The notes under the pieces were generated by a model that was given only the letters and a program-made list of their open reading frames with translations, ran no database searches and was not told the origin of the DNA. This document shows, piece by piece, positions 4,709 to 44,647 of a DNA stretch of 44,647 bases (within the stretch, counting starts at the first letter, position 1; every line of letters begins with the position of its first letter). The DNA is from an uncultured Bacteroidota bacterium (GTDB taxonomy: Bacteria; Bacteroidota; Bacteroidia; AKYH767-A; JABDAW01): assembly GCA_903844645.1 (NCBI GenBank), contig CAIMUP010000069.1:1-44647 (forward strand), written 5' to 3'. Made by a program: the position numbers and the translations under genes.

Positions 4709-4813
4709 CCAAAACGTAAACACCTTTTACCAAAACGTAAACACCTTTTACCAAAACTTAAACAAGCTTTACCAAAACTTAAACATGTTTTTCCAAAACT
4801 TAAACAGTGTTTG
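4709..4813. repeat. 21-bp tandem array, 5 units
   Basis: Five contiguous 21-bp units begin at 4709, 4730, 4751, 4772 and 4793. Each starts CCAAAAC(G/T)TAAACA and ends in a variable T-rich tail. The tail tends to complement the AAACA of its own unit (AAACATGTTT in unit 4, AAACAGTGTTT in unit 5), so each unit carries a small dyad. The array lies between the convergent rpoD and DUF5723 genes. Units do not match any other array in the window, but the period does. Confidence 0.95.
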
Positions 4814-4876
4814 AGAAAATTTCGGGTAGGTTTTATGATTTTAACCCCTGGAAAAGTTGGAGCTAATGTTATTTAA

Positions 4877-6232
4877 TTAAAAGAAAGTGGCGGTGAAGCT
4901 AATCGTCAAATCGGTGCCTGTGGCGAGGTGGCTGAACATTAATCCTCCTAAATTATCGGAGCCGATGCTGATTCTTTTTCGCGACCAATAAAGGCTGGCA
5001 TAAGGACCGAAAACGAAGCGATTGTATCCGCCATAAGCGGTGGACATGCCGAGGTTCAGGGTGTGCCCGAAGCTGTGGGTGTACCCTCCGGCAATGAAGG
5101 GATTGACCGTGGTTCCGGGCAAATTGCTGAAGCCCTGGATGTAGGTCAGGAAGACGGAATTCATGGCGTAATCGCCCTTTTTGGTGTCTGTAATTATCTG
5201 TTGAAATTCGGCAAGGAGGTTGATTTTTGGGCTTACCGGTATCTTGTAAGAACCGCCTGGGGTTATTTGTGGAATGAAAATAGTGGTCAGCTGGTTGGGG
5301 TCAATTTTGATGTCTCCAAAGAGGTTGCTGACGATGGCTCCGGTGTAGTTTTCGAGGGAATCTTTGTGGTAAGAAACGATGTCTTTGTCGAATGTTACGA
5401 AGTTCAAATCGGTCAAACTGGCGGCAAAAGTGAGGTTTGAATTTGGATAATATGAGAGGCTTAAATCGAACCCGTAGCCCTTGCCAGCGGGGTTGAAGAG
5501 GTCGAAATTTTCATTGGCTCTCGAGGTTTTAATGTCATAATTGAAGCCGACCGCGACGGTGTCGCCAAGGGAAGTGGTGCGGATGGAAAAATCTTTATTG
5601 GTCATGTACATGGAGCCAATTCCTTGAATATATTTTGCGCGGATGCCTACTCGCAGTTCCTTTTCGTGCTCATCGCCAAAGATGGTGAAGGCACTCCCAA
5701 ACGCGTATTCTCGGATATAATTTACGTTGATCGCAAAGGGATCGAGCTGCACCGTTTGCCCTCGGAACTGGTAATTTCCGTGCCACATTAGCTTCGCCAT
5801 ATTTTGCGAAAGCACCATGTTTGAAGCCACTTTGTCATCCACCGAAAGCGTGAAGACGACATGCTTTTCATCCTTCGGGGTGTTGTATTGATATGCCAAA
5901 GCGAAGACCTGCATGTCCTGCCCGAAGCCAAGAATATTGTCTCCCTTGAGCTTGCTGATAATGGTATTTACTTGCGCATTGTTGATTTCTTTATTTTTGT
6001 TGAGGTCTTGAATGGAGCCATAGTCGAACGTATTATTTCCGAGCCATACATAGTAATTCATACCTGCCTGAATATGATGTTTGCCGAGGTCAAGCTCGGA
6101 AGTAAACATCCGATTATTGATGTCGTGCTGGCTGTTATAAAAGGTTCCGATGTTGTATTGTCCAAAGGAATTGGCTGCTAAAAAGAGCAAGCCAAGGGCG
6201 AGAAGCAGGGTATTAAGATTTATATTTTTCAT
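4877..6232 (-). CDS. DUF5723 family predicted outer-membrane protein
   Basis: 451 residues. A Sec signal peptide covers residues 1 to about 24 (LLLALGLLFLAANSFGQ), then a mature start resembling other DUF5723 proteins (NSQHDINNRMFTSELDLGKHH). The rest alternates polar and hydrophobic beta-strand segments and ends LTISFTATFF; a terminal aromatic residue is typical of beta-barrels handed to the BAM complex. The function of DUF5723 is not known. The preceding lipoprotein gene stops 17 bases upstream, so the two probably form an operon and may act together at the outer membrane (inference). Confidence 0.75.
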   Translation of the reverse strand: MKNINLNTLLLALGLLFLAANSFGQYNIGTFYNSQHDINNRMFTSELDLGKHHIQAGMNYYVWLGNNTFDYGSIQDLNKNKEINNAQVNTIISKLKGDNILGFGQDMQVFALAYQYNTPKDEKHVVFTLSVDDKVASNMVLSQNMAKLMWHGNYQFRGQTVQLDPFAINVNYIREYAFGSAFTIFGDEHEKELRVGIRAKYIQGIGSMYMTNKDFSIRTTSLGDTVAVGFNYDIKTSRANENFDLFNPAGKGYGFDLSLSYYPNSNLTFAASLTDLNFVTFDKDIVSYHKDSLENYTGAIVSNLFGDIKIDPNQLTTIFIPQITPGGSYKIPVSPKINLLAEFQQIITDTKKGDYAMNSVFLTYIQGFSNLPGTTVNPFIAGGYTHSFGHTLNLGMSTAYGGYNRFVFGPYASLYWSRKRISIGSDNLGGLMFSHLATGTDLTISFTATFF

Positions 6233-6249
6233 GATGTGTGTTGTTTCGA

Positions 6250-7275: not shown

Positions 7276-7302
7276 GGTGAATTATCTTTATTTTATTTAG
7301 GG

Positions 7303-7310
7303 CGAAATTA
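7303..7310 (-). promoter_or_regulatory. Possible -7 box TAATTTCG for the lipoprotein-DUF5723 pair
   Basis: One mismatch to TAnnTTTG, 28 bases before the ATG at 7275. The same variant occurs ahead of lpdA (40903-40910). Confidence 0.4.
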
Positions 7311-7359
7311 CAAAATTTTATTAAAGTCCTTTTGTACGAGGATTCGCCTTGAAAGTTTA

Positions 7360-9782: not shown

Positions 9783-10055
9783 GTATCTTGAGGAATGAAC
9801 TTGGTATCTTGAGGAATGAACTTGGAATTTCAAGTCTTCTACTTGGAATTTCAAGTCCTCAACTTGGTATTTTCAGTCCTCAACTTGGAATCTGAAGGGA
9901 AAAGTTTGGAACATTAAGCCATGAAACACGTGTTTTATGCCTTAATGTTCCAAACTTTTCCCTTGGAATTCCAAATTTAATCCTCGAAATTCCAAATTTA
10001 ATCCTTGAAATACCAAGTTCATTACATAAGATACCAAATGCAGAAGCCGAGATTC
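9783..10055. repeat. 21-bp array that inverts about its centre, 13 units
   Basis: Units begin every 21 bases from 9783 to 10035. The seven left units start G(A/T)AT or GAAC and most end ACTTG or GTTTG. The six right units start CAA and most end in ATTC or ATAC, the reverse-complement pattern. The switch falls exactly on a unit boundary (9929/9930). The innermost unit pair matches as inverse complement at 19 of 21 bases and the next at 18 of 21; outer pairs are more diverged. It occupies the gap between the O-antigen ligase stop and the gatB promoter. Confidence 0.93.
9897..9962. repeat. 66-bp near-perfect palindrome at the array centre
   Basis: Arms of 33 bases pair with only two mismatches (9919/9940 and 9923/9936). 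The centre is CACGTG with no spacer. The outer ends are GGGAAAAGTTTGG and CCAAACTTTTCCC. As RNA it would form a long hairpin with no T run, so it is not a standard terminator. As DNA it could extrude a cruciform. Confidence 0.97.
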
Positions 10056-11566: not shown

Positions 11567-12517
11567 TTAAGAATGCTTAGCCCTATCCATATACCCAATA
11601 ATAAAATATGCTACGAGCAAGGAAGAGAGTGTAGAAATAACCACAATCAGCCACCTTACGGGGTATGTTTTCTTATCTGCCGGATAAGGCTTTGTAATAA
11701 TATTAGAATAGGTCAGTATTTTCTCTACATCCTTGATAGCATTCTCATATTGATTCTTTATATCGTTATAACTGCCCCGTACTCGCCACAAATGTTCATT
11801 GATAGAAACAAAATCGCCACCATATTCTTCCAAGTTCTTAATCATTTGCCGAGCCTCGGTCAGGGCTTGCGAATTAGTCGTCTTCGACAGCATCTCGTAA
11901 TACTCTTTCGTGAGTTCCTTCGATTGCAAATCGTAACTGATAATCCCGTATTTCGTCCTGATATTCTTAACGAGTGCTTCCATCGAATCCATTTCTGTTT
12001 TCTTCCTATCCAATTGCCCTTTGATAATCTTCACCAGTTCTTCCGACTTCTCGCGTTGAAGGCTCTTCGCCTTTTTATTCATCAAATCAATAATAGTATC
12101 CACCATCGCAGACGCAATGAACGGATTTTTATCCAACACACTCACCTCCACAGATTGAAATTCATTCCGCGAAAAACTAATATTATCATTATAAACCTCT
12201 ATCAAGTGCGACAACGAATATTTATCCTTCGTCGAATCAATATCGTAATGCTTCATCAGGCTGAAAATACGAAACATATCCCTCCGAATATCATCCGACT
12301 GAAGCACCTGTATCATCTGTTCCGTAGGGCTTTCACCCGCATAAGGAATAATATTCGACGGATACAGAATAGCAAACGATTTATACTTCGATTCTATAAA
12401 TGTCGGTCCCGAAAATATCAAGGAAACCCCCATCGCCAAAAATCCTATCACCAAAAAATGCACCCTCCACCGATTCAACAACTGAAGTATATTCGTAGCG
12501 TTCATATTATTTTCCAT
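11567..12517 (-). CDS. Wzz-type polysaccharide chain-length protein, second paralogue
   Basis: 316 residues. An N-terminal membrane span (about residues 16-36, HFLVIGFLAMGVSLIF) and a C-terminal span (WLIVVISTLSSLLVAYFIIGY, about 288-308) bracket a helical, coiled-coil-rich periplasmic domain, the Wzz topology. PY motifs (KPYPADKKTYPVRW) precede the second span. There is no tyrosine kinase domain. It is clearly related to the 372-residue protein encoded just upstream; both share the IRRDMF or IRDRVI, LM(K/R)HY and SFSR(N/T)EF segments. It likely controls polymer length for the neighbouring Wzy_C protein. Confidence 0.85.
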   Translation of the reverse strand: MENNMNATNILQLLNRWRVHFLVIGFLAMGVSLIFSGPTFIESKYKSFAILYPSNIIPYAGESPTEQMIQVLQSDDIRRDMFRIFSLMKHYDIDSTKDKYSLSHLIEVYNDNISFSRNEFQSVEVSVLDKNPFIASAMVDTIIDLMNKKAKSLQREKSEELVKIIKGQLDRKKTEMDSMEALVKNIRTKYGIISYDLQSKELTKEYYEMLSKTTNSQALTEARQMIKNLEEYGGDFVSINEHLWRVRGSYNDIKNQYENAIKDVEKILTYSNIITKPYPADKKTYPVRWLIVVISTLSSLLVAYFIIGYMDRAKHS

Positions 12518-12535
12518 AAAGTAGTAAATAGTAGG

Positions 12536-13654
12536 TTAAGATCGTTTAAACTGTGCATAACTCTCCATCCCGATCAACACCAACACACTTAAAAACAATG
12601 CCGACAAAGTAGAAAACAAAACAATCAGCCACCGGATAGGATAACTCTTCTTTTCCGCCTTAACCGCTTTATTCACCACAAACTTATTCGACAAGGTCTC
12701 ATCCAAATCTATCTTCGCCTTCGCAAATTTCTCTCGCAAATCAGCCAATGCTTTCCGTTGCCAACCCATTTCCTGCGCCATCGAAACATTCGCCCCGCCA
12801 TACTTCGCAAAATTATCCAATGCCGCCTTCATACTCTTCATTTTCGCTTCCGCTCCCTTAATCCGAGCCTTCGTAGCGATCACCAACGTATCTTCCTCCT
12901 TCCGATATTTCTGCAAAATCGGCAAACCCGCCGTTTCATTCTCATAAACCGACGACGCCTTCGTATATTCCTCATTATACATCGCCGATTGAGACTCATA
13001 ATCAAAAATCCCTTTCGACCGCAGATATTGCATCGTATCCTCAATCTCCTGCATCCGTTTCCGCTTATCCTGATATGCCGCCTCCACAATATTATATGCC
13101 TGCCAAGCCCGTTCATGCTGAATCTTCGTCTTCATCGAATCCACCAAATCAGAAATAGTATTCGCCATATTCGCCGCCAATTCCGGATTCTCATCCAAAA
13201 CCTCAATCTGAACAGACATAAACTCCGTCCTGCTAAACGAAACATTCGATTCAAACTCCTTCCGAACCCGAGTTTGAGGATAATCCGACGAAGCATCAAT
13301 CCGATAATGCCTCATCAAATCAAATTTCTCAATCACCCGATCCCGAATTTCATCCGAATTCAAAATCTGAAGCAACTGCTCCGCCTGCTCCTCCTTCCCA
13401 AATTTCAAAACATCCTGCTCCTCCTCTACAGCCCCCAACAACGCCTTCGAAATAGAATTCGTACTCGAAGGAAAAAGAATAACAGCCGATTTAAACTTCG
13501 GTTTAATAAAAGCCGAACTCGAGAAAATCGTCGCGCCCAACGCCGCCACCGCAGCAATAATTAATAAATGCCATTTCCATTTAATAATAAAAATAAACAA
13601 GTTCGAGGCATCCATATAATTTGCCCTCCGCGGAGTGTTTTGTAAATCGTTCAT
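12536..13654 (-). CDS. Wzz-type polysaccharide chain-length protein, first paralogue
   Basis: 372 residues from the ATG at 13654; a TTG one codon earlier is less likely to be the start. Membrane spans near residues 26-46 (WHLLIIAAVAALGATIF) and at the C terminus (WLIVLFSTLSALFLSVLVL) flank a long helical periplasmic region with coiled-coil-like stretches (VEAAYQDKRKRMQEIEDTM). It has about 50 more residues than its neighbour, partly an insert after the first span (EEEQDVLKFGKEEQAEQL). Two tandem Wzz-like proteins may form a mixed oligomer or set two modal lengths (inference). Its plus strand is extremely C-rich and G-poor. Confidence 0.85.
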   Translation of the reverse strand: MNDLQNTPRRANYMDASNLFIFIIKWKWHLLIIAAVAALGATIFSSSAFIKPKFKSAVILFPSSTNSISKALLGAVEEEQDVLKFGKEEQAEQLLQILNSDEIRDRVIEKFDLMRHYRIDASSDYPQTRVRKEFESNVSFSRTEFMSVQIEVLDENPELAANMANTISDLVDSMKTKIQHERAWQAYNIVEAAYQDKRKRMQEIEDTMQYLRSKGIFDYESQSAMYNEEYTKASSVYENETAGLPILQKYRKEEDTLVIATKARIKGAEAKMKSMKAALDNFAKYGGANVSMAQEMGWQRKALADLREKFAKAKIDLDETLSNKFVVNKAVKAEKKSYPIRWLIVLFSTLSALFLSVLVLIGMESYAQFKRS

Positions 13655-13679
13655 CAAAGTAATATTTATTTAAGGAGCG

Positions 13680-13687
13680 CAAAAATA
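13680..13687 (-). promoter_or_regulatory. -7 promoter box TATTTTTG for the wzz-wzz-ligase unit
   Basis: Minus strand TATTTTTG, 26 bases before the ATG at 13654. Confidence 0.55.
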
Positions 13688-13729
13688 GAAAATAATTGGA
13701 ATAAATCCCCCACAACCCGCAAACACGCC

Positions 13730-13769
13730 GGTCAGGATTTGGTTTCCGCTAGTCAGGATTTGTAATCCC
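13730..13769 (+). repeat. Two REP-like GTCAGGATTTG motifs
   Basis: GGTCAGGATTTGG at 13730 is followed by TTTCC, and AGTCAGGATTTGTAATCCC lies at 13751-13769. Both are degenerate copies of a hairpin motif whose best copy is at 33590-33612. Confidence 0.6.
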
Positions 13770-13834
13770 ACCCTCTCCGTGAATCTCCTTTTTTCTCTGT
13801 GAAATTCTTTTTAATCAGAGAATCTGTGGCTATA

Positions 13835-13852
13835 AACCTCTTTTGGGAGGTT
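13835..13852 (+). other. Small hairpin before the array leader
   Basis: AACCTC (13835-13840) pairs with GAGGTT (13847-13852) around a TTTTGG loop, directly before the conserved leader. The second leader copy lacks this hairpin. Confidence 0.4.
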
Positions 13853-13853
13853 A

Positions 13854-13887
13854 AAAATTTTAACTAAAAACCCACATTCTCCAAAAT
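13854..13887 (+). repeat. Array leader, copy 1
   Basis: AAAATTTTAACTAAAAA, then CCCACAT, then CT and AAAAT, ending where the first 21-bp unit begins. The same block, with one extra A and small differences, precedes the unrelated array at 36407. Finding it in front of two arrays with different units suggests it belongs to the element rather than to either neighbouring gene. Confidence 0.75.
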
Positions 13888-14053
13888 GGGCGATAAACTC
13901 GACCACATGGGCGATAAACTAACACGCATGGGCGATAATCTAACACACATGGGCGATAAACTCGAACACATGGGCAATAAACTCGACCACATGGGCGATA
14001 AACTCGACCACATGGACGATAAACTCGACCACATGGGCAATAATCTCTCCGCC
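13886..14053 (+). repeat. 21-bp tandem array, 8 units
   Basis: Units start at 13886 and every 21 bases to 14033, each beginning ATGG(G/A)C(G/A)ATAA and usually ending CTCGACCAC. Changes cluster at a few sites (GCGAT or GCAAT; CTCGACCAC or CTAACACGC). One frame encodes heptads such as MGDKLDH, but the frame has no gene-like start or end. It lies in the divergent gap between the wzz unit and accC. Confidence 0.95.
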
Positions 14054-14072
14054 GGTCAGGATTTGCAATCCC
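14054..14072 (+). repeat. REP-like motif GGTCAGGATTTGCAATCCC
   Basis: It follows the last unit of the array at 13886 directly. GGATT pairs with AATCC around a short loop. Confidence 0.55.
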
Positions 14073-14094
14073 CTATATGTAATTCATAATTCAA

Positions 14095-14312
14095 TTATGG
14101 CGCGTCCCCGGCTGCCTCCCACCAAAGTCCCCACCAAATGGCAGCCACGGTCGGGCTGTTCGGGGGTACCGTACCTGCCTGCCACCAGAAAAGTCCCCAC
14201 CAAAAGGCAGGCACCAAGCCCCTACCATCCCTCGCGCAGCAGACGACCCAGTCCATAAACCACACAAGCATCCTGACAAACAATCGCCCCTTCGCGATTT
14301 CCTGTCAGGTTG
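14095..14312 (+). repeat. Structured dispersed repeat, copy 1
   Basis: About 218 bases beginning TTATGGCGCGTCCCCGGC and ending TTTCCTGTCAGGTTG. It matches 35989-36256 in the same orientation, with many blocks identical (GGCAGCCACGGTC, CGGGGGTACCG, CAAGCCCCTACCATCCCTCG, CCCCTTCGCGATTTCCTGT). It contains an internal near-duplication of CCCCACCAAA(A/T)GGCAG. It is G+C-rich compared with its surroundings. The minus strand is open in two frames (GLVPAFWWGLF and similar), but this appears to be a by-product. It is not recognisable as an IS or a known RNA family. Confidence 0.85.
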
Positions 14313-14313
14313 C
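14268..14313 (+). ncRNA. Hairpin at the 3' end of the dispersed repeat, copy 1
   Basis: The outer stem GCATCCTGACA pairs with TGTCAGGTTGC (one T/T mismatch). A symmetric 3x3 internal loop follows, then an inner stem AATCGC/GCGATT and a CCCTTC loop. The copy at 36208 keeps the same architecture with a partly different outer stem. It is structured as DNA or RNA; transcription is not shown. Confidence 0.5.
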
Positions 14314-14323
14314 ATTCAATATT

Positions 14324-14806
14324 CCAAGTTACGACCAATGAAATCCAAGTTACGACGAATGAAATTGAAGTTACGACGAATGAAATTGAAGTTACGACGA
14401 ATGAAATCCAAGTTACGACCAATGAAATTCAAGTTACGACGAACATATTCCAAGTTACGACGAACATATTCCAAGTTACGACGAACATATTCCAAGTTAC
14501 GACCAACATATTCCAAGTTACGACCAACATATTCCAAGTTACGACCAACATATTCTAAGTTACGACCAACATATTCTAAGTTACGACCAACATATTCCAA
14601 GTTACGACGAACATATTCTAAGTTACGACCAACATATTCCAAGTTACGACGAACATATTCTAAGTTACGACCAACATATTCCAAAACCAAACGACAATAT
14701 ATTCAAGCCAAACGACAATATATACAAGCCAAACGACAATATCCCAAAACCCAACGAACATATTTCAAAACCCAACGAAGGTATTTAATAAAACGTAACG
14801 AACTTT
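14324..14806 (+). repeat. 21-bp tandem array, 23 units, two unit families in one register
   Basis: Seventeen units (14324-14680) share AAGTTACGAC(C/G)AA. The first five mostly continue TGAAAT and the later ones CATATT. From 14681 the units change to AAACGACAATAT or CCCAACGAACATATT forms but keep the 21-base step to 14785, with a sixth degenerate unit ending at 14806. The array ends 3 bases before the accC -7 box, so accC's upstream promoter region is built from array DNA. Confidence 0.95.
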
Positions 14807-14809
14807 TTG

Positions 14810-14817
14810 CATCTTTG
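14810..14817 (+). promoter_or_regulatory. -7 box CATCTTTG for accC
   Basis: One mismatch to TAnnTTTG, 23 bases before the ATG at 14840. Because the alternative ATG at 14807 lies at this box, 14840 is the preferred start. Confidence 0.55.
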
Positions 14818-14839
14818 CCTCCCTCCAATAAAATCAAAG

Positions 14840-16333
14840 ATGAATAAAATACTAATAGCCAACCGCGGCGAAATAGCCCTCCGCATCATGCGATCTGCCA
14901 AAGAAATGGGCATCAAAACAGTCGCCGTATTCTCCGAAGCCGACCGGAATTCCCCCCATGTCCGCTATGCCGACGAAGCAATCTGCATCGGACCATCCCC
15001 CTCCAACCAAAGTTATTTGGTAATGGAAAAAATAATTAATGCCGCCAAAACCACCCATGCCGACGGCATCCATCCCGGATACGGATTCCTGTCCGAAAAC
15101 GCAATATTCGCCAGGAAAGTCAAAGAAGCAGGCATCATCTTCATCGGTCCCTCCCCCGAATCAATGGAAATGATGGGCGATAAACTCTCCGCCAAAGCCG
15201 CAGCCAAAAAATATAATATCCCCCTCGTTCCTGGCACCGATTATGCCATTCAAGATATTGACAAAGCAAAGATAGTAGCACAAGAAGTCGGCTTCCCCAT
15301 CCTCATCAAAGCCTCTGCCGGAGGTGGCGGCAAAGGAATGAGAGTAGTAAATACGATAGAAGACTTTGAAGAACAAATGAAACTTGCCGCCTCCGAAGCC
15401 CTTTCCTCATTCGGCGATGGATCCGTGTTCATCGAAAGATATGTCGCCGCCCCTCGCCACATAGAGATTCAAGTTCTTGGAGATACCCACGGCAATATCG
15501 TTTATCTTTTCGAAAGAGAATGCTCTATCCAGCGCAGGCATCAAAAAGTAGTGGAAGAAGCACCCTCCTCCTGCCTCACTCCCGAACTACGGAAGGCAAT
15601 GGGAGAATGCGCCGTCATGGTTGCCAAAGCATGCAACTACATCGGGGCAGGCACCGTCGAGTTTTTGATGGATGAAAAGATGAACTTCTACTTCCTCGAA
15701 ATGAATACCCGCCTTCAGGTAGAACATCCGGTAACCGAATTAATAACCGGAAAAGACCTCGTGAAGGAACAGATCAAGGTGGCTCGCGGCGAGAAATTAT
15801 CCTTTACACAAGAAGACCTCAAGATAATTGGTCACGCCATAGAGATTCGTGTTTGCGCCGAAGACCCAACCAATAATTTCCTCCCCGATACCGGCACTTT
15901 AACCACCTACCAAATTCCGAAAGGAGCAGGTGTAAGAGTGGATGACGGCTTCGAGGAAGGCATGGAAATACCTATCTTCTACGACAATATGATTGCAAAA
16001 TTAATTACCTACGGACACAACCGCGAAGAAGCCATCCAAAGAATGATTCGAGCCATAGACGAATATAAGATTACCGGCATAGAAACCACACTACCCTTCT
16101 GCAAGTTTGTAATGATGCACGAGAATTTCAGGAATGGTAACTTCGATACGAACTTCATCAAGAATTATTTCCAACCAGATGATCTTCTCTCTTCCAATGC
16201 CGATGAGGAAATTGTGGCTGCCCTGCTCGGTGCCAAGTTGATGAATGAAAATAATCAGAGCCATCATTCCGTTCTCGAACCTGCTATTGAAAATGACAGC
16301 AGATGGAAGAAAAATCGGGGAACGGAATCCTAA
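14840..16333 (+). CDS. accC: Biotin carboxylase subunit of acetyl-CoA (acyl-CoA) carboxylase
   Basis: 497 residues from MNKILIANRGEIALRI. It carboxylates biotin on its carrier protein using ATP and bicarbonate, the first step of fatty-acid synthesis. The ATP-grasp core shows Lys157, the glycine-rich loop GGGGKG (161-166), ERECSIQRRHQK, and the catalytic segment EMNTRLQVEHP with Glu287, Asn289, Arg291 and Glu295. It has about 45 residues beyond the E. coli enzyme at the C terminus (from about FQPDDLLSS on). accB is not adjacent, so it may instead serve a propionyl- or other acyl-CoA carboxylase. Codons at the 5' end are markedly C-rich, fading toward the 3' end. Confidence 0.93.
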   Translation: MNKILIANRGEIALRIMRSAKEMGIKTVAVFSEADRNSPHVRYADEAICIGPSPSNQSYLVMEKIINAAKTTHADGIHPGYGFLSENAIFARKVKEAGIIFIGPSPESMEMMGDKLSAKAAAKKYNIPLVPGTDYAIQDIDKAKIVAQEVGFPILIKASAGGGGKGMRVVNTIEDFEEQMKLAASEALSSFGDGSVFIERYVAAPRHIEIQVLGDTHGNIVYLFERECSIQRRHQKVVEEAPSSCLTPELRKAMGECAVMVAKACNYIGAGTVEFLMDEKMNFYFLEMNTRLQVEHPVTELITGKDLVKEQIKVARGEKLSFTQEDLKIIGHAIEIRVCAEDPTNNFLPDTGTLTTYQIPKGAGVRVDDGFEEGMEIPIFYDNMIAKLITYGHNREEAIQRMIRAIDEYKITGIETTLPFCKFVMMHENFRNGNFDTNFIKNYFQPDDLLSSNADEEIVAALLGAKLMNENNQSHHSVLEPAIENDSRWKKNRGTES

Positions 16334-20087: not shown

Positions 20088-20172
20088 TTTCTCTTATTTT
20101 AATTGTTATATTTAATTTTTATTAATTGTAGCATGTTGTAATACCTTGCAAAACTAAATCGCTTAGACCCTT

Positions 20173-30637: not shown

Positions 30638-30757
30638 CTACTATTGCCTATTTTAAGACTGAATGATAAGAAAACAGGTGATAGTATCGAAATCATCAAA
30701 AACAACCGTATTCCTTCCATTATTACCTCGCCACAGAATGCCAAACAAGCCAAATAA

Positions 30758-30961
30758 ATTAAAATACCACTTCATAACTACCCCCATTATTTGGCTAAAA
30801 ATCGTGTTTTGGAGGGAAACTCCTATCGAATTTTGAAATTTACGAATGCTAAGGGAGAAGAATTGGAGGTGTTTTTCTTTAAAAAAGATGGTCGGGATGC
30901 CTGTTTTCAAGTGAGTAGCTTCTACAGATTTTACATTGTTACCATAAGTTTCGCTAATTAA
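30758..30961 (+). pseudogene. Possible gene remnant
   Basis: An open stretch of 67 codons with no ATG at its head ends at TAA (30959-30961). Its sequence is protein-like (EGNSYRILKFTNAKGEELEVFFFKKDGRD, shown in part as RILKFTNAKGEELEVFFFKK). The preceding stop at 30755-30757 and the nearby array suggest the 5' part was lost. I do not recognise the family. An overlapping minus ORF (30653-30967) looks less coding. Confidence 0.35.
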
Positions 30962-33614: not shown

Positions 33615-34556
33615 TTATTCAGTAACCGAACTTTTTAATTTTATCTTCTTGGCATTATCAATACTGGCATTTAATTCGAAACCGATAAGCAGAATTACGG
33701 CATTAAAATAAATCCAAAGCAAGATCACAATCAGCGTCCCAATGGAGCCATAAACTTTGTTGTAATTTCCAAAATTATTAACGTAATAAGTAAACAAAAT
33801 AGAGGTCAATAACGAAAGCAAAGTGGCTAAAGTAGAACCCGCTGATACGAATCTCCAATTATTTTTATTCGCAGGACCGAGGTAATAAAGAAATGAAATA
33901 ACGAGGAAGAAAAGTGCACAGATAATGATCCATCTACCGATCTTTATTGAAAACACGATGCTCCGTGTTTTGATCCACCCATGATGTACCATTTCATGCA
34001 GCAAATACTCCGTAAAAACAATCAAAGAAATAGAAATAATAACCATTATCGCAAAGGCAAAAACAAGAATTAAGGAGACAATATATTGCTGCAAAGGCTT
34101 CCGTGTTTCCACGTAATGATGCGATTTATTAAACGCATTGATAAGTGCATTGATGCCATTCGTAGAGAAGTAAATCGAAGCAACAAAACCAATAGATAAC
34201 AAGCCCCCGTGCTGGTGTTTTATAATATCGAAAATGGTGCTGTATGCCAGCTTGTATGCGTTATCTGGTAATAAATCTTTTATCAGTTGTAGTAGCTCAT
34301 CCTGAAAACCTTTGATAGGCAAGTAAGCAATCATCGTGAACAAGAAAATAATCGAAGGAAACAACGCTAAAAAAAAGGTGAACGCCAGAGCCGAAGCACG
34401 AGTAGTGATAGCTCCATTATAAATCCCTTTAAAGAAAAATTTAGTAACGTCAAACAAAGGTAACCCCTCGAATCCAGGCAACCGAATACGCTGCGTCAAC
34501 TTCACAAAAAGTGAAAAGAATTTAAACCGCACCAAGAAATTATAAACCCTACGCAT
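33615..34556 (-). CDS. YihY/virulence factor BrkB family membrane protein
   Basis: 313 residues from the ATG at 34556; a TTG codon before it is less likely the start. Six membrane spans are visible, with family landmarks NGAITTRASALAFTFFLALFPSIIF near residue 50 (shown in part as RASALAFTFFLALFPS), YFSTNGINALINAFN, YYLGPANKNNWRFVSAGS, and a final span with YGSIGTLIVILLWIYFNA. The family was once called RNase BN in error; its real role is unknown. It starts 6 bases after the nadC stop and forms an operon with it. Confidence 0.9.
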   Translation of the reverse strand: MRRVYNFLVRFKFFSLFVKLTQRIRLPGFEGLPLFDVTKFFFKGIYNGAITTRASALAFTFFLALFPSIIFLFTMIAYLPIKGFQDELLQLIKDLLPDNAYKLAYSTIFDIIKHQHGGLLSIGFVASIYFSTNGINALINAFNKSHHYVETRKPLQQYIVSLILVFAFAIMVIISISLIVFTEYLLHEMVHHGWIKTRSIVFSIKIGRWIIICALFFLVISFLYYLGPANKNNWRFVSAGSTLATLLSLLTSILFTYYVNNFGNYNKVYGSIGTLIVILLWIYFNAVILLIGFELNASIDNAKKIKLKSSVTE

Positions 34557-34562
34557 CAAATA

Positions 34563-35405
34563 TTAATAAGCTTTTAAACTCATATCCAAACTACTGTAAG
34601 AATGCGTCAAAGCCCCCATCGAAACATAATCAACACCACACCTCGCATAGTCCAAAATAGTATCCCCGGTAATGTTTCCCGAAGCCTCCGTTTCATACTT
34701 ATCTCCAATCATTTCAACCGCTATTTTAAGATCATCAATACTGAAATTATCCAGCATAATCCTATTGATACCACCCACCGAAAGTATCTCTTCTACCTCA
34801 ACAATATTCCTCGCCTCAACCTCAATCTTCAAATCTTTCCCAAACAATTCTCGGTAAGCAATAGCAGCACCAATAGCATTAGAAATCCCACCCGCAAAAT
34901 CAATATGATTATCCTTGATCATCATCATATCATACAACCCAAAACGATGATTCATCCCACCCCCAATCCCCACCGCCATCTTCTCAAACACCCGAAAATT
35001 AGGAGTCGTTTTACGCGTATCCAAAAGCCTCGTTTTATAACCCCCAAGCAACCTCACCAACCCATTCGTCTTCGTCGCGATACCACTCATCCGCTGCATA
35101 CAATTCAAAACCAAACGCTCCGCCATCAAAATAGACCTCGCACTGCCCTCCACATAAAAAGCCACATCCCCAACCCCAACAAATGCCCCATCATTAATAA
35201 ACACCGACAACCGCAACGAATCATCCACCAACCCAAAAATCCTCTCCGCAACCATCACCCCAGCCAAAACCCCCTCACCCTTAACAATAAGTTTCGCCTT
35301 AGACATACTCCCCTCACCAATCGTAGCCAAAGAAGTAACATCCCCAGCCCCAACATCCTCCGCCAAAGCCAATCTCAAATAATCATCCAATTCAGTCATC
35401 ACCAT
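34563..35405 (-). CDS. nadC: Nicotinate-nucleotide pyrophosphorylase (quinolinate phosphoribosyltransferase)
   Basis: 280 residues. It converts quinolinate and PRPP to nicotinate mononucleotide, CO2 and pyrophosphate in de novo NAD synthesis. Landmarks: LAEDVGAGDVTS, ERLVLNCMQRMSGIAT, the phosphate and quinolinate site LLDTRKTTPNFR, NHRFGLYDMMMIKDNHI, EVEARN, IMLDNFS and the terminal YVSMGALTHS. The start could be ATG 35405 or ATG 35399. The plus strand over this gene is extremely C-rich, and a 293-codon antisense ORF results. A -7 box is at 35422. Confidence 0.95.
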   Translation of the reverse strand: MVMTELDDYLRLALAEDVGAGDVTSLATIGEGSMSKAKLIVKGEGVLAGVMVAERIFGLVDDSLRLSVFINDGAFVGVGDVAFYVEGSARSILMAERLVLNCMQRMSGIATKTNGLVRLLGGYKTRLLDTRKTTPNFRVFEKMAVGIGGGMNHRFGLYDMMMIKDNHIDFAGGISNAIGAAIAYRELFGKDLKIEVEARNIVEVEEILSVGGINRIMLDNFSIDDLKIAVEMIGDKYETEASGNITGDTILDYARCGVDYVSMGALTHSYSSLDMSLKAY

Positions 35406-35421
35406 TATATTTTCAAAGCCG

Positions 35422-35429
35422 CAAAATTA
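35422..35429 (-). promoter_or_regulatory. -7 promoter box TAATTTTG for nadC-yihY
   Basis: Exact match on the minus strand, 17 bases before the ATG at 35405; if this start is used the leader is about 10 bases. Confidence 0.55.
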
Positions 35430-35481
35430 GAATATAAAAAAAGAAATCAGAAACACACCCTAATGCGCTTCAAATTCCCAT

Positions 35482-35525
35482 AGTCTGGATTTGTAATCCG
35501 CTGGTCAGGATTTGCAACCCCGACC
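35482..35525. repeat. Two REP-like motifs between nadC and the DUF4783 gene
   Basis: AGTCTGGATTTGTAATCCG (35482-35500) and GGTCAGGATTTGCAACCCC followed by GACC (35503-35525). Both are imperfect versions of the hairpin at 33590. Confidence 0.6.
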
Positions 35526-35536
35526 CCAATCTCCCC

Positions 35537-35926
35537 CTACTGCTTCTCAAACCTCAACTCCTGAATAATATTCCTCCCACCAACCTGCTTAATATAACAA
35601 TAAGTCCGCAACGACCCACCCTGCACCGTCAACAAACTCCCAATAGCATAAGAAGCCCCATCCTTAGACGTCCCCTTATGCAAAATAGAAAACGATTTCG
35701 GAGTATTCTTCACAAAAAAATCCCTCAAAATAATCTGCGCCTGCGCCCTACTATAAACATCCTCCTGCGCCAAAATCGTCAAATCAACAGTAGAACCAAA
35801 AAACTCCCCAATCAACCCACTATTCCCAGCCCTAATCGCAGAACTAATATCATCATACACATCAAAAGCCCAAACATTCAAGCTCAACCCAATCAACACA
35901 CCAACAATCACAATCACCTTTTTCAT
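35537..35926 (-). CDS. DUF4783 domain-containing exported protein
   Basis: 129 residues from the ATG at 35926. A signal peptide (VIVIVGVLIGLSLNVWAF) precedes a single compact NTF2/SnoaL-like domain: DISSAIRAGNSGLIGEFF, STVDLTILAQEDVYSRAQAQ, FFVKNTPKSFSILHKGTS and the closing YCYIKQVGGRNIIQELRFEKQ. DUF4783 is found in Bacteroidota and its function is unknown. A longer ORF to 36202 runs into the dispersed repeat (its extra N terminus is repeat DNA read as GLVAAFWWGLFGG), so the short start is preferred. Confidence 0.88.
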   Translation of the reverse strand: MKKVIVIVGVLIGLSLNVWAFDVYDDISSAIRAGNSGLIGEFFGSTVDLTILAQEDVYSRAQAQIILRDFFVKNTPKSFSILHKGTSKDGASYAIGSLLTVQGGSLRTYCYIKQVGGRNIIQELRFEKQ

Positions 35927-35988
35927 AACACTATTTTTTTTCCAAACACATACAAAAATCAAGCCAACTTTCCCAACCCCAAACCCAC

Positions 35989-36256
35989 TTATGGCGCGTC
36001 CCCGGCAGCCTCCCCACCAAAGACCCCACCAAAAGGCAGCCACGGTCAGGCTGTCCGGGGGTACCGTTGCCGCCTCCCCACCGAAAAGTCCCCACCAAAA
36101 GGCAGCAACCAAGCCCCTACCATCCCTCGCGCAGTAAAACCCAACCATCCCCCAAAACCCACACCATCCAAACAACCCGATACCAACCAAACAAACAATC
36201 ACCCCCCGATTTCATCCTGACAGGCAATAGCCCCTTCGCGATTTCCTGTAAGGTTG
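35989..36256 (+). repeat. Structured dispersed repeat, copy 2
   Basis: Begins TTATGGCGCGTCCCCGGC and ends TTTCCTGTAAGGTTG. It matches 14095-14312 in the same orientation; it is about 50 bases longer because of A/C-rich insert sequence after CCATCCCTCGCGCAG. The blocks TGGCGCGTCCCCGGC, AAAAGTCCCCACCAAAAGGC and CCCCTTCGCGATTTCCTGT are shared exactly. It lies 62 bases upstream of the DUF4783 ATG, so any DUF4783 promoter lies in or next to it. Confidence 0.85.
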
Positions 36257-36261
36257 AAATC
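36208..36261 (+). ncRNA. Hairpin at the 3' end of the dispersed repeat, copy 2
   Basis: GATTTCA (36208-36214) pairs perfectly with TGAAATC (36255-36261). The stem continues through a T/T mismatch to CCTGACA/TGTAAGG (one mismatch), a 3x3 internal loop, AATAGC/GCGATT (one mismatch) and the CCCTTC loop. Compared with copy 1 a G-C pair in the outer stem is replaced by T-A on both sides. Confidence 0.5.
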
Positions 36262-36388
36262 CAAGCAAATACACCCCACCCCAAAATTCCAAGATCCTAT
36301 CATAATCAAAGAATTAACAAACCGAAAAACCAAAACCAAAAACTCCGATAGACATACTCAAAATAATTGATAATCACTACAATCAGGC

Positions 36389-36422
36389 AAAATTTTAACT
36401 AAAAAACCCACATCTGTAAAAT
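36389..36422 (+). repeat. Array leader, copy 2
   Basis: AAAATTTTAACTAAAAAA, then CCCACATCTG, then TAAAAT. Compared with 13854-13887 it differs by one extra A, one fewer T and two base changes. It overlaps the first, decayed 21-bp unit. No gene starts or ends in it. Confidence 0.75.
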
Positions 36423-36595
36423 ATAGCATCACAGTGAGTTTGTATAGCAAATAATCCAATTTGTACCCCACCAAATCACATTCATACCCCACCAAATCAC
36501 ATTCATACCCCACCAAATCCAATTCATAGAGCAAATAATCCAGTTTGTACCCCACCGAATCGCATTCACACCCCACCGAAATACTCTTATAGAAA
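36407..36595 (+). repeat. 21-bp tandem array, 9 units, two alternating unit types
   Basis: Units begin every 21 bases from 36407. One type starts AAATAATCCA(A/G)TTTGTA and the other ACC(A/G)AATC(A/G)CATTCA; they alternate in blocks, joined by CCCC or AGC ends. The order suggests duplication of a multi-unit block. It ends 32 bases before the NrnA -7 box. Confidence 0.93.
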
Positions 36596-36626
36596 ACAAA
36601 CTCCCCGCCACTTCCCACACAAAGGC

Positions 36627-36634
36627 TATTTTTG
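36627..36634 (+). promoter_or_regulatory. -7 promoter box TATTTTTG for the NrnA-FKBP operon
   Basis: Exact match, 24 bases before the ATG at 36658. Confidence 0.6.
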
Positions 36635-36657
36635 CCCCTCAATAAAGATAAATATAT

Positions 36658-37689
36658 ATGCCCCACAATAACAGATTCCCCTACCAGCAAATGCTGCCAG
36701 TAATCAAATTACTCGATGCCCCTAAAAAAATTATCATCACCACCCATCACAAACCTGATGGCGATGCCATGGGATCCTCATTAGCCATTTACAATTATCT
36801 AAAAGCAAAAGGACATAACCCTACTATCATCACCCCATCCGACTACCCCGAATTCCTCTATTGGCTACCCGGAAACGAACATGTAATAGAATACCCAAAA
36901 CAAATGGAAGCCTCCCAAAAACTCTTCGACGAAGCCGAAATAATCTTCTGCCTCGACTACAATAACCCGAATAGAACCGAGACTTTAGAAACAGTAATCG
37001 TAAACTCCAAAGCCAAGAAAATATTAATTGATCATCACCTTCATCCAGCCCCTTTCTGCGATTATACTTTCTCATATCCCCTCTCCTGCGCCACTTGCGA
37101 GTTAGTCTATCAATTCATTGTCGCCATGGAAGATGCATCAGTAATTAATAAAGCCATTGCCGAATGTATCTACTGCGGAATAATGACCGACACCAACTCT
37201 TTTCGCTTCGAAACAATGACAGCCGACACCCATAGAATTGTAGCTGACCTAATGGATAAAGGAGCCGAGAATTATAAGATTCATGAAAACGTGTTCGACA
37301 ATTTTTCTTTCGACAGGATGAAAATGGTAGGCTTTAGTTTGTTTAATAAGTTGCGTATGATACCCCAATTCAAGACCGCATTTATCAGTCTTTCCAAAGA
37401 AGATATTGCAGAATTCGACAGTACCACCGGAGATACCGAAGGCATCGTTAATATGGCTCTCGCAATAAAAGATGTGAAGCTCGCCGCATTCTTTTATGAG
37501 ACTCCTAAATTGATAAAAATATCTCTTCGTTCCAGAGGAGAGTTCTCAGTAAAAGAAATGGCGCAAACATATTTTGAAGGTGGCGGTCATCGCAATGCGG
37601 CAGGAGGAAAAGCATACACTTCTTTGGATGATGCCATTAATAAATTCGTTAGTATTCTTCCGGAATATCGTGATGAATTATTGAAATAA
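36658..37689 (+). CDS. DHH/DHHA1 phosphoesterase, NrnA-type (nanoRNase/pAp phosphatase)
   Basis: 343 residues. Two domains: DHH with HHKPDGDAMGSS (Asp34, Asp36), CLDYNNP near 98-104, DHH at 125-127 in LIDHHLHP and GIMTDTNSFRF, then DHHA1 with GGGHRNAAGG near residue 310. These metal-binding residues match enzymes that degrade 2-5-mer RNAs and dephosphorylate 3'-phosphoadenosine 5'-phosphate; some relatives hydrolyse c-di-AMP breakdown products. No membrane span. It forms an operon with the FKBP lipoprotein gene, 6 bases downstream. Its 5' codons are C-rich, fading along the gene. Confidence 0.92.
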   Translation: MPHNNRFPYQQMLPVIKLLDAPKKIIITTHHKPDGDAMGSSLAIYNYLKAKGHNPTIITPSDYPEFLYWLPGNEHVIEYPKQMEASQKLFDEAEIIFCLDYNNPNRTETLETVIVNSKAKKILIDHHLHPAPFCDYTFSYPLSCATCELVYQFIVAMEDASVINKAIAECIYCGIMTDTNSFRFETMTADTHRIVADLMDKGAENYKIHENVFDNFSFDRMKMVGFSLFNKLRMIPQFKTAFISLSKEDIAEFDSTTGDTEGIVNMALAIKDVKLAAFFYETPKLIKISLRSRGEFSVKEMAQTYFEGGGHRNAAGGKAYTSLDDAINKFVSILPEYRDELLK

Positions 37690-39525: not shown

Positions 39526-39588
39526 CCGCTTTCAGAAGGTTTGATATGGTTTATTCAGAAACGAAAAATCAAAAGAGGTCAAAAAATC

Positions 39589-39840
39589 TTTAAAGATTCG
39601 TTTCATATCTTTAAAGATCCGTTTCATATCTTTAAAGATTCGTTTCATATCTTTAAAGATCCGTTTCACATCTTTAAAGATTCGTTTCATATCTTTAAAG
39701 ATTCGTTTCACATCTTTAAAGATTCGTTTCACATCTTTAATGATTCGTTTCATATCTTTAAAGATTCGTTTCACATCTTTAAAGATTCGTTTCACATCTT
39801 TAAAGATCCGTAACGAACTTTTAAAGATTTTTCGGTATCT
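39589..39840. repeat. 21-bp tandem array, 12 units, each with a 12-bp palindrome
   Basis: Ten close units from 39589 to 39798 repeat TTTAAAGAT(T/C)CGTTTCA(T/C)ATC; two decayed units follow in register to 39840. Each junction creates ATCTTTAAAGAT, a perfect 12-bp palindrome spaced every 21 bases; one unit has a T instead of an A in it (AATGAT). Variation is confined mainly to two C/T sites. It lies between two plus-strand genes. Confidence 0.97.
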
Positions 39841-42330: not shown

Positions 42331-42348
42331 TATCCTCTTAAAGAAATA

Positions 42349-44253
42349 ATGTGTGGTATCACAGGTGTTGTTGCTTTTACGAAAGAAGGAACAAACTATC
42401 TTGATAAGGTCAAACGATCTTGTGATACCTTAGCAAAACGTGGTCCTGATGCTGAAGGGATTTATCATCACAATCAAGTTGCGCTTGGGCATCGTCGGCT
42501 TTCTATCATTGATACAACAACCGCCGCGAATCAACCATTTACAGATCATACAGGTCGTTATACTATTATCTTTAATGGAGAATTTTTTAACTTCAAAGAA
42601 CATCGTGAAGCATTGATAAATGCAGGTGTTCCTTTAAGAACCCATAGCGATACAGAAGTTCTTTTAAATCTTTTTATTAAAGAAGGGGCTGCTTGTTTAA
42701 ATAAAGTAAATGGCTTCTTTTCCTTTGCAATTTATGACAAGGAAGAAGAGAAATTATTCATTGCCAGAGATAGAATCGGAGTGAAACCTTTATTGATTTA
42801 TCAGGATGCTGATAAGTTGCTCTTCGCCTCTGAAATGAAGGCAATCATGGCTTATGGTATTACTAAGGAAATTGATTTTACTTCCCTATACATTTATCTT
42901 CAATTGAATTATATTCCGGCTCCTCATTCTATTCTCAAGAATGTCAGGAAGCTGCTTCCAGGGCATTACATAGAAGTTCATAATGGTATTGTGAAGGATG
43001 TGGAATATTATAAAATACCTTTTGATTCCAAAGAAACTATTAAGCCCTTCAACGAACATTCTTATAACAAACAGAAGAATCATCTAAGAGATTTATTAGA
43101 AGAATCTGTTTCCAAGAGAATGGTTTCGGATGTTCCATTGGGTGCTTTTCTTTCGGGTGGCGTTGATTCAACTATCATTGTATCTATTGCATCTAAACTT
43201 GTTCCGAGTTTAAAAACATTTTGCATAGGCTTTAATGGCGATAAGAAATTTGATGAATCGAAAGATGCCGAAGCAGTTGCTAAGATGCACAAAACAGATC
43301 ATACTACCTTCCATTTATCCAATGATGATTTGCTTGGAAGCCTTCATGATATGCTTGATTATATTGATGAACCCTTCGCAGATTCATCAGCCATTGCAGT
43401 GAATATCTTGAGTAAATATACCCGTGAACATATCAAAGTTGCATTGTCCGGTGATGGTGCTGATGAATTGTTTGCTGGCTATAATAAACACCGCGCCGAA
43501 TGGCATATTCGCAACAACGGTTATCTAAGTTTATTAAAATATATCGAGCCATTATTAAGGATATTACCGAAGTCGAGACATACCAATACAGGAAATACAA
43601 TTAGACAAATGCACCGCTTTGCGCAAGGCGTAAAGTATAGTAGGGCGGTACGATACTGGTTATGGTGTACAATAACTAATGAGAAGGAGGCTTATAATTT
43701 AGTCAATAAAGAACATGATACTGGTCACTCACTTGTCAGGACTTTAAATTACATTAATCAAATCAATAATAATACTGGTAATTCTGACCTTAACGATGTC
43801 CTCTACTCCGATGTCCATTTAATCCTCCCAAACGACATGCTTACCAAAGTTGATATGAATTCAATGGCTCATGGCTTAGAAGTTCGCAACCCCTTCCTCG
43901 ACTATAAAGTAGTGGAATATGCCTTTCAAATTCCATCCGATTATAAGATAGACAAACACGCCTCCAAAAAGATTCTGAAGGATGCTTTTATAGATGCTTT
44001 TCCAAAAGAAATTCTTAACAAGAAGAAGCAAGGATTCGAGGTGCCCATGCTAAGATGGATTCAGAATGATTTGAAAACGCTGATAGATGAATTATTGAAT
44101 GATGACTTTATTATCGAACAAAATATCTTCAATCCTTCCGAAATAAAACGCCTCAAACAAAAGATCTATTCCAATGACCCGGGTGAAGTCCATGCCCAAA
44201 TCTGGGGCTTAATCGTTTTTCAATACTGGTGGAAAAAATACATCCAAGCCTAA
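42349..44253 (+). CDS. asnB: Asparagine synthase (glutamine-hydrolysing)
   Basis: 634 residues, the long form common in Bacteroidota. Cys2 is the Ntn glutaminase nucleophile after Met removal; RRLSIIDTTTAANQPF and FNGEFFNFKEHR line the glutamine site. The synthetase half has the PP-loop SGGVDS (269-274) and SGDGADELFAGYNKH. Complete active sites suggest a functional ATP-dependent enzyme making asparagine from aspartate. Relatives of this length also amidate sugars or peptides in surface-polysaccharide clusters, so free asparagine is likely but not certain. A 21-bp array begins 47 bases after the stop. Confidence 0.93.
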   Translation: MCGITGVVAFTKEGTNYLDKVKRSCDTLAKRGPDAEGIYHHNQVALGHRRLSIIDTTTAANQPFTDHTGRYTIIFNGEFFNFKEHREALINAGVPLRTHSDTEVLLNLFIKEGAACLNKVNGFFSFAIYDKEEEKLFIARDRIGVKPLLIYQDADKLLFASEMKAIMAYGITKEIDFTSLYIYLQLNYIPAPHSILKNVRKLLPGHYIEVHNGIVKDVEYYKIPFDSKETIKPFNEHSYNKQKNHLRDLLEESVSKRMVSDVPLGAFLSGGVDSTIIVSIASKLVPSLKTFCIGFNGDKKFDESKDAEAVAKMHKTDHTTFHLSNDDLLGSLHDMLDYIDEPFADSSAIAVNILSKYTREHIKVALSGDGADELFAGYNKHRAEWHIRNNGYLSLLKYIEPLLRILPKSRHTNTGNTIRQMHRFAQGVKYSRAVRYWLWCTITNEKEAYNLVNKEHDTGHSLVRTLNYINQINNNTGNSDLNDVLYSDVHLILPNDMLTKVDMNSMAHGLEVRNPFLDYKVVEYAFQIPSDYKIDKHASKKILKDAFIDAFPKEILNKKKQGFEVPMLRWIQNDLKTLIDELLNDDFIIEQNIFNPSEIKRLKQKIYSNDPGEVHAQIWGLIVFQYWWKKYIQA

Positions 44254-44300
44254 TCATTCCCCAAAACACGACCCCTCGAAATGCCGATTTTGGCTGTTGT

Positions 44301-44647
44301 TTTGGGAAAGTTGGGTGTTGATTGGGAAAAGCAGAAGGTCTCTTGGGAAAAGCAGAAGGGCTCTTGGGGAAAGCAGAAGGACTCTTGGGGAAAGCAGAAG
44401 GGCTCTTGGGGAGACCAAAGTTTCAACGTGGGTGACTAGAGTTAAAGGTGGGGTGACTGGAGTTAAAGGTGGGGTGACTGGAGTTAAAGGTGGGATGACT
44501 GGAGTTAAAGGTGGGATGACCGGAGTTAAAGGTGGGATGACCGGAGTTAAAGGTGGGATGACCGGAGTTAAAGGTGGGATGACCGGAGTTAAAGGTGGGA
44601 TGACCGGAGTTAAAGGTGGGATGACTAGAGTTAAAGGTGGGATGACC
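44301..44647. repeat. 21-bp tandem array with two unit families, running off the window
   Basis: From 44301 units step by 21. Four or five contain TTGGG(A/G)AAAGCAGAAGG(G/T/A)CTC (44322-44405), one is transitional (44406), and from 44427 the units become GGTG(A)CTAGAGTTAAAG and then GTGGGATGACCGGAGTTAAA forms. The register does not shift at the change. GGT and ACC form a dyad in the second family. The array continues past the window end. Confidence 0.95.

Follow-up and report, generated by a model that had tools for sequence, protein, structure and literature searches.

Intergenic tandem arrays with a common 21-bp period and largely unrelated unit sequences in a genus of uncultured Bacteroidota

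Bacterial minisatellites are usually ascribed to slippage and have varied lengths. Repetitive extragenic palindromic sequences and bacterial interspersed mosaic elements (REP/BIME) combine a shared palindromic sequence with a RAYT transposase, and in clustered regularly interspaced short palindromic repeats (CRISPR) a dyad-like repeat is duplicated by Cas1-Cas2, being copied exactly via staggered strand cuts and gap filling. BrickBuilt of Porphyromonas gingivalis, a minisatellite and miniature inverted-repeat transposable element (MITE), is described as intergenic with a 23-nt repeat (22- and 41-nt repeats are also mentioned); it has one unit sequence and 19 copies, in 4 of which the terminal inverted repeats are intact at both ends (PMC4596501). 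The tandem repeats of archaeal Borgs are reported to be many, fast-evolving, mutually unrelated and virtually absent from the host chromosome, and their authors infer a formation process; the units vary in length, are mostly perfect and lie in genes in about half of the cases, 14-38% of the intergenic lengths being divisible by three (PMC9879509). TAACTGA heptamers form intergenic direct repeats of fixed period in Beggiatoaceae, Cyanobacteria and some Bacteroidetes (PMC4679880), and eukaryotic satellite DNA has nucleosome-sized monomers (PMC8122249). In the open-licence literature searched, no genome was found described with arrays of one period and no common sequence. The present work concerns intergenic tandem arrays with a 21-bp period in a 44,647-bp stretch, here called the window, which is contig C69 of the genome of an uncultured Bacteroidota bacterium (GenBank assembly GCA_903844645.1, here G000; 3.84 Mb, 143 contigs, 98.7% complete). 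An earlier note, made from the sequence of the window, had listed ten such arrays and had proposed that something acts on their period rather than on their sequence.

Arrays were called with Tandem Repeats Finder (TRF), which found one at each of the ten positions listed earlier, with slightly shifted coordinates (Table 1). The main sample of G000 comprised 1,134,351 bp (the window and 60 further stretches, 30% of the genome) and is meant below unless a smaller first sample of 355 kb is named. In it, the period was a multiple of 21 for 331 of 399 arrays, with 227 arrays at 21 bp, 62 at 42 bp, 28 at 63 bp, 9 at 84 bp, 1 at 105 bp and 4 at 126 bp. Neighbouring periods were scarce (7 arrays at 20 bp, 2 at 22 bp), there was no peak at 18, 24 or 27 bp in this sample, and 11 arrays had a period of 14 bp. 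The 21-multiple arrays account for 4.2% of the bases sampled, and extrapolation from the 30% sample puts their total in G000 at the order of a thousand. In the 355-kb sample, 109 of 130 arrays were multiples of 21, and the self-match of intergenic DNA at lag 21 was 0.413 against 0.275 expected; z was 71, 65, 48, 50, 33 and 33 at lags 21, 42, 63, 84, 105 and 126, respectively. The only other notable lags were 1-3, 20 (z = 4.5) and 22 (z = 4.1), no signal was detected in these 355 kb at lags 7, 10, 11 or 14, and the lag-21 excess persisted outside called arrays (z = 7-11). The 21-bp periodicity of the intergenic arrays is real, genome-wide and far above chance. The claim that no other period occurs is correct for strong arrays, while weak arrays of 7, 9, 13, 14, 15 and 20 bp, with scores of 40-50, are also present in the window.

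The units themselves are diverse. Arrays of at least 60 bp were clustered by joining those with at least 16 of 21 matches (at least 15 inside one neighbourhood), and 276 arrays gave 214 clusters, 172 of them singletons and the biggest having 6 members. The sequences had been called unrelated, which applies to most of them; a few families are nevertheless dispersed in G000 as diverged relatives of the arrays at 30375, 20167 (C54:39544-39723, 78%) and 4709 (C10:39870-40020), and the arrays at 9819 and 9948 are inverted relatives sharing one gap, as also occurs in L114, L127 and L126. No common motif was found among 161 non-redundant units, since 4 of 25 dinucleotide-shuffled sets scored as high when given the same number of restarts; an early edge (0.596 against 0.589 for the best of 12 shuffles) had been obtained with 8 restarts against 4 and was gone when these were equal. 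The units have no internal 10-bp periodicity and no 10.5-bp sub-period, and an origin from heptamers (3 x 7) was rejected, as lags 7 and 14 are silent and the within-unit lag 7 has z = -2.6. The period histogram and the clustering of units, which the earlier note had suggested as a check, thus gave a sharp peak at 21 and 42 bp over many separate units, as expected if something acts on the period rather than on the sequence.

Gene calls came from a home-made hexamer scorer instead of Prodigal, and a filter dropped low-scoring open reading frames (ORFs) together with those covered by arrays over more than 20% of their length. As this filter tilts toward an intergenic verdict, counts with and without it are both stated. 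Unfiltered, 283 of the 331 21-multiple arrays lay outside called ORFs and 48 inside. Of these 48, 33 fell in ORFs shorter than 250 aa and 15 in ORFs of at least that length, where just 3 had at least three units. With the filter, 317 arrays were outside genes and 14 inside, the values for arrays of at least three units being 268 and 2. Among the 270 arrays with at least three units in the unfiltered set, 238 were outside ORFs, while short ORFs held 29 and those of at least 250 aa held 3. The arrays are therefore mainly intergenic, as claimed before, and both outcomes named beforehand as fatal to the proposal, a lack of genome-wide 21-bp excess and arrays lying mostly within expressed genes, are contrary to what was found with the called ORFs. 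In G000, most gaps of at least 300 bp contain a 21-multiple array; no gene orientation is singled out, because arrays occupy most gaps of 300-600 bp between tandem (54 of 77), convergent (21 of 26) and divergent genes (23 of 29). None of 423 gaps shorter than 100 bp holds an array, and the non-array DNA per gap has a median of 364 bp in array gaps versus 54 bp in array-free gaps. Of note, 22 of the 47 contig ends examined fall inside an array; long arrays are therefore probably under-counted, and other draft genomes may conceal systems of this kind.

Within arrays, neighbouring copies differ at 1.57 of 21 positions, a value that grows with distance to about 2.6 for copies seven units apart, and the copies at array ends have diverged further (1.73 versus 1.22), as local duplication would predict. 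Indels are scarce at 0.030 per substitution in the 21-multiple arrays (34 of 235 arrays with any; the smaller sample had given 0.019), whereas the rate was 0.093 for 37 arrays from other genomes and 0.22 for 54 G000 arrays of non-21 period. For comparison between genomes, a search for relatives placed G001 and G002 (the latter just 58% complete) in the genus of G000 and G003 in its family, while G041 was treated as a near relative, its exact kinship to G000 not being given by that search. At 39 orthologous gene flanks, defined as lying within 700 bp of the gene, an array was present in G000 only at 10, in G001 only at 2, in both at 2 and in neither at 25; the corresponding numbers for 33 flanks shared with G002 were 8, 1, 2 and 22. 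Thus 18 of 22 array flanks of G000 had no array in the congener, and at all four shared places the units were unrelated (9-11 of 21 matches). In G041 the array was missing at each of the six compared flanks where G000 has one. Array turnover, judged from these flanks, is fast.

Short duplications point to the same length. Two-unit duplications of 21 bp (at least 18 of 21 matches, at least 85% identity) away from arrays of three or more units numbered 20 in 142 kb of intergenic G000 DNA, while none of the lengths 18-20 and 22-31 bp gave more than 1. An equally sharp 21-bp peak was found in G001 (18) and G002 (13), and none of these duplications occurred in 87 kb of G041.

The density of arrays of at least 63 bp with a period multiple of 21 was 23.7 per 100 kb in G000 (269 arrays), 14.8 in G001 (23) and 9.5 in G002 (10), whereas G003 (44 kb) and G041 (87 kb) had no such array. 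A further 36 genomes of the order, sampled by one stretch each (633 kb in all), gave a single array, in G027, and 79 other contigs (1.40 Mb) gave six. As far as sampled, the trait is one of the genus, a restriction that the earlier note had not reported, and isolated cases elsewhere are possible. The array of G027, which belongs to a different family of the order, spans L194:23-215 with a 63-bp period (3 x 21), and a strong, palindromic 21-bp array of 11.8 copies is found at L039:584-831 in the Bacteroidetes metagenome-assembled genome (MAG) RH-23may17-600. In contigs L032-L111, mainly from Bacteroidota, 13 seven-bp and 11 fourteen-bp repeats were counted among 90 arrays, and some of the 21-bp arrays there are built of heptamers, in contrast to those of G000. 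None of four protein families, reverse transcriptase (RVT), Y1 transposase, MutS and HU, distinguishes the genus. MutS_V had one match each, in a frame of MutS1 size, in G000, G001 and G003 and none in G002; across 41 genomes, 27 had at least two matches and 13 had one.

Whole units are more self-complementary than their shuffles, with a mean z of 7.6 for period 21 (172 arrays), 13.4 for period 42 (62), 14.4 for period 63 (27) and 15.8 for period 84 (7), whereas control 21-mers and 42-mers gave 0.3 and 2.0 in non-array intergenic DNA and 0.2 and -0.7 in coding DNA. The initial stem test was weak for 21-bp units. Several 42-bp arrays can be read as alternating inverted 21-mers, and at L121:18012 cores resembling TGTGTCACA recur at 21-bp spacing with flipping orientation. 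Variation at dyad-paired bases was 0.74 of the unpaired rate, against an expected 1.006 +/- 0.066 (130 arrays of period 21 or 63), and for 34 arrays of period 42 it was 0.69 against 0.97 +/- 0.10. This excess of dyad symmetry and the lower variation at paired bases are new with respect to the earlier note. Selection for an RNA hairpin was considered and rejected: the arrays fold somewhat better than their column-permuted versions (mean z -0.76, with 26% below -1.5 and 1% above 1.5, for 90 random arrays of at least 84 bp), yet there is no surplus of compensatory double changes (19 of 742, 0.0256 against 0.0196 +/- 0.0053).

The explanation favoured here, with a probability of roughly 0.4, is that the arrays are minisatellites specific to this bacterial lineage and arise by a duplication process whose step is fixed at 21 bp. 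A process that makes this length is preferred to selection that keeps it because of the 21-bp peak of two-unit duplications, the free unit sequences, the fast turnover and the insertion-tolerant sites. The step would be set by an enzyme or complex contacting the DNA at points two turns apart on a single face, most likely through a pair of nicks, one in each strand with 21 bp between them, at sites of loose dyad symmetry. Fill-in and ligation would then duplicate precisely the enclosed 21 bp and restore the site, slippage or unequal exchange could enlarge the arrays in whole multiples (42, 63, 84), and arrays would persist where insertions are harmless, to be quickly lost or replaced. A dyad-preferring dimer nicking two turns apart would, we infer, explain the period, the dyads and the free sequence together. 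The specific version, in which an enzyme of the genus would recognise loose dyads and nick 21 bp apart as a spacerless and sequence-free analogue of CRISPR repeat duplication, is speculative and on balance improbable.

Several observations weigh against a fixed 21-bp duplication step. Two-unit duplications of 14 bp are equally many (20, at a threshold of 12 matches out of 14) and there are 9 of 13 bp, other genomes also peak at 21 among 17-30 bp (14 loci in 2.03 Mb), and the 20 loci of G000 may be remnants of decayed arrays and not births. Called genes (929 kb) give 6 counts at 21 bp, which are 4 distinct loci, two of low complexity and two near gene starts, with no clear in-gene case; with so few duplications in genes, the process must avoid them or be strongly purged there. 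Six 21-multiple arrays come from the 79 other contigs, though three are heptamer-built, and 21-bp units taken singly show little dyad signal (3 of 172 at p <= 0.02). The search for an enzyme gave no candidate: the reverse transcriptase family had no match in G000, Cas1 and other integrases not being searched, and the Y1 transposase had one match, which is partial.

Selection on phased binding or bending is the main rival, if less probable. A chromosomal protein would bind dyad-like sites on one face every two turns, reading spacing and shape over sequence, so that duplications of any length would arise and those in phase would be kept. The period indeed equals two turns of B-DNA, and the dyad symmetry with its constrained paired bases, the scarcity of indels and the presence of arrays in most gaps of 300-600 bp at every gene orientation are consistent with such a protein. 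Variable columns are clustered within units (lag-1 z = 4.7 for 61 arrays of G000 and G001), and around the dyad axis G+C is low at 1.5 and 6.5 bases and high at 4.5 and 8.5-10.5; this profile, from the 48 most dyadic arrays of the same two genomes with a half-integer axis, is weak (p = 0.0003, exploratory, with thresholds chosen earlier). On the other hand, arrays are not conserved at the compared orthologous flanks, which is odd for functional binding sites, and births of neighbouring lengths are nearly absent. The units have no 10-bp periodicity and the motif search did no better than dinucleotide shuffles; the HU family gave no candidate binder, its copy number being ordinary. The two-turn binding suggested in the earlier note gains from the dyads, the constrained paired bases and the weak G+C profile, while no named DNA-binding system is backed by HU copy number, flank conservation, 10-bp periodicity or a shared motif. 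Lysine-rich ORFs with internal KKxA-like repeats, at L250:13994-15064 and L114:1756-2667, are possibly histone-H1-like and are candidate DNA binders by sequence.

Some arrays are related to one another or lie beside dispersed modules, and these modules the earlier note had not reported. One of them is E220, of about 220 bp, with at least 33 matches of at least 130 bp and at least 12 shorter pieces in G000 (40 of 88 candidates scored); it has no match in G001, G003 or G041 and a single 42-bp match in G002. Several E220 copies adjoin arrays of quite different units. The module looks rich in hairpins, and several of its copies are situated shortly downstream of a gene. Palindromic repeats of 14 bp, for example AAACTTTAAACCTT, are recurrent in G000 (window gaps, L114:11811, L129:10384), often just before E220 copies.

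From such modules a BrickBuilt-like mobile minisatellite may be imagined, in which one ancestral 21-bp array spread with leader and tail modules and its copies diverged, concerted evolution keeping the period and losing the sequence. Within the sample a dispersed module lies no more than 60 bp from 91 of 271 arrays, and the flank at 30644-30813 recurs beside diverged arrays at five loci and, in L218, is shared to 97.6% beside an array of a different unit. Among shared-module sides 14 of 82 have units matching at 15 of 21 or better, and the distance between module and array agrees within 5 bp in 15 of 63 sides with unrelated units against 7.7 expected (p = 0.0045, suggestive only). For 97 pairs of arrays sharing a flank module, however, the units are at background (at most 12 of 21) in 71 and match at 16-21 of 21 in 15. 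Units are at background even where the shared module is 88-93% identical over 130-230 bp, as at L124:7780 and L240:3600 (flank 92% over 202 bp, units 9 of 21), which would be too fast for neutral concerted evolution. Dispersed similarity covers 19.7% of non-array bases in array gaps against 20.0% in array-free gaps, inverted repeats flank just 15 of 235 internal arrays, and E220 is without a match in G001 though that genome has arrays. Because of the lacking enrichment and the few inverted repeats, the modules are mostly neighbours and not carriers of the arrays, with a few families as exceptions; the idea of arrays as parts of MITE-like elements, strong on flank sharing, is weakened by the same two results, and a mobile origin is considered quite unlikely.

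Translated repeat peptides (21 bp being seven codons) are very improbable, and a coding tandem repeat was rejected: the period is a multiple of three, ORFs cross several arrays and open frames (4.27 of 6) exceed those of mononucleotide shuffles (3.85), but they equal those of dinucleotide shuffles (4.20, z = 1.4), no peak exists at 18, 24 or 27 bp, between-copy variation has no codon phase (z = -0.42, 158 arrays) and the synonymous share in the best open frames is 0.433 against 0.437 +/- 0.019 in the column-permuted control (92 period-21 arrays), in agreement with the earlier view that the arrays are not coding. A short-read assembly artefact, which the fragmentation into 143 contigs and the contig ends in arrays could suggest, is hardly credible, given that array copies differ by substitutions, that two congeneric genomes have the same period and that an exact 141-bp overlap of two contig starts would fit a large assembly word.

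The features of the window are collected in Table 1. The second 42-bp array, at 20425, is absent from the earlier note. The stretch 39582-39832 matches its own reverse complement at 70%. The last of the three arrays in 44290-44647 matches arrays ending contigs C59 (94%) and C128 (99%), and these end arrays are probably one broken array. Strong local GC skew, to -0.58 per kb, was seen at 12001-15000 and 34001-37000, near arrays, modules and neighbouring genes. Pfam matches among the window genes include a class II tRNA synthetase (D/K/N type), GatB and asparagine synthase, and the closest named match of one window protein is in a Bacteroidetes MAG from Lake Pavin (75% identity; L063, part of G041). 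Rfam gave no match in the window at the gathering score.

Table 1 Repeat arrays and associated modules in the window (contig C69 of G000).
Feature	Position	Strand	Description
21-bp array	4709-4806		4.7 copies, unit CCAAAACTTAAACACCTTTTA, conserved core CCAAAACnTAAACA, variable 7-bp tail
Two adjoining 21-bp arrays	9783-9891		9783-9825 and 9819-9891, TRF
21-bp array	9948-10016		Inverted relative of 9819-9891 (16/21)
Quasi-palindrome	9841-10018		178 bp, 79%
21-bp array	13886-14047		7.7 copies, unit ATGGGCGATAAACTCGACCAC
Dispersed module E220, about 220 bp	14094-14313	+	Sits between two arrays
21-bp array	14319-14684		17.4 copies, longest of the window
21-bp array	14676-14778		4.9 copies, register of 14319-14684 kept, unit differs
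42-bp array	20167-20341		4.2 copies
Second 42-bp array	20425-20542		2.8 copies; unit differs from that of the 20167 array, gap shared
Weak 21-bp array	25982-26042		2.9 copies, 78%
21-bp array	30375-30637		12.5 copies, unit GACCTCATCGAGTGTTTGAGA
Dispersed flank module of the 30375 array	30644-30813	+	Also beside arrays of diverged units at five other loci, 81-98%
Partial E220 copy	35989-36134	+	Additional piece at 36213-36256
Diverged 21-bp array	36453-36582		6.1 copies, 73% between copies, without indel
21-bp array	39586-39811		10.8 copies, most units contain palindrome ATCTTTAAAGAT
Three adjoining 21-bp arrays	44290-44647		Reach the contig end

A shared length without a shared sequence separates the setting of length from the setting of sequence in repeats. 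The arrays would either come from mutational machinery whose step can be measured or form a code for chromosome organisation that is read by spacing, and in the improbable specific version a 21-bp nicking enzyme would write satellite DNA into bacterial intergenic regions.

Compared with CRISPR, the 16 arrays inspected run head to tail without spacers and the units are many and unrelated. As for REP/BIME, no unit sequence is shared here, and the one Y1 transposase match in G000 is partial. The likeness to eukaryotic satellite DNA, as described, is that length more than sequence would fit a chromatin unit; the difference is that the present arrays are short, dispersed and bacterial, and a binder for them is hypothetical (PMC8122249). 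The intergenic habit is shared with the TAACTGA repeats, which use one fixed heptamer, whereas no 7-bp sub-period exists here (PMC4679880). With the Borg repeats the arrays have in common that they are numerous, fast-evolving and of unrelated sequence genome-wide, and they differ in having one length and its multiples (331 of 399), imperfect copies and a mainly intergenic position (238 of 270) (PMC9879509). BrickBuilt resembles them as an intergenic minisatellite of about two helical turns in Bacteroidota with flanking non-repeat modules; it differs in its single unit, against 214 clusters among 276 arrays, and in its inverted repeats, kept at both ends in 4 of 19 copies, against 15 of 235 arrays flanked by such repeats here (PMC4596501), and, as to leader and tail modules shared between loci, 91 of 271 arrays here lie near a module, without enrichment over array-free gaps. 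Among the systems found, and as far as their published descriptions were drawn upon, BrickBuilt is thus the nearest in Bacteroidota and the Borg repeats are the nearest in dynamics, and the arrays are set apart from BrickBuilt, Borg and heptamer repeats alike by at least one defining feature of each.

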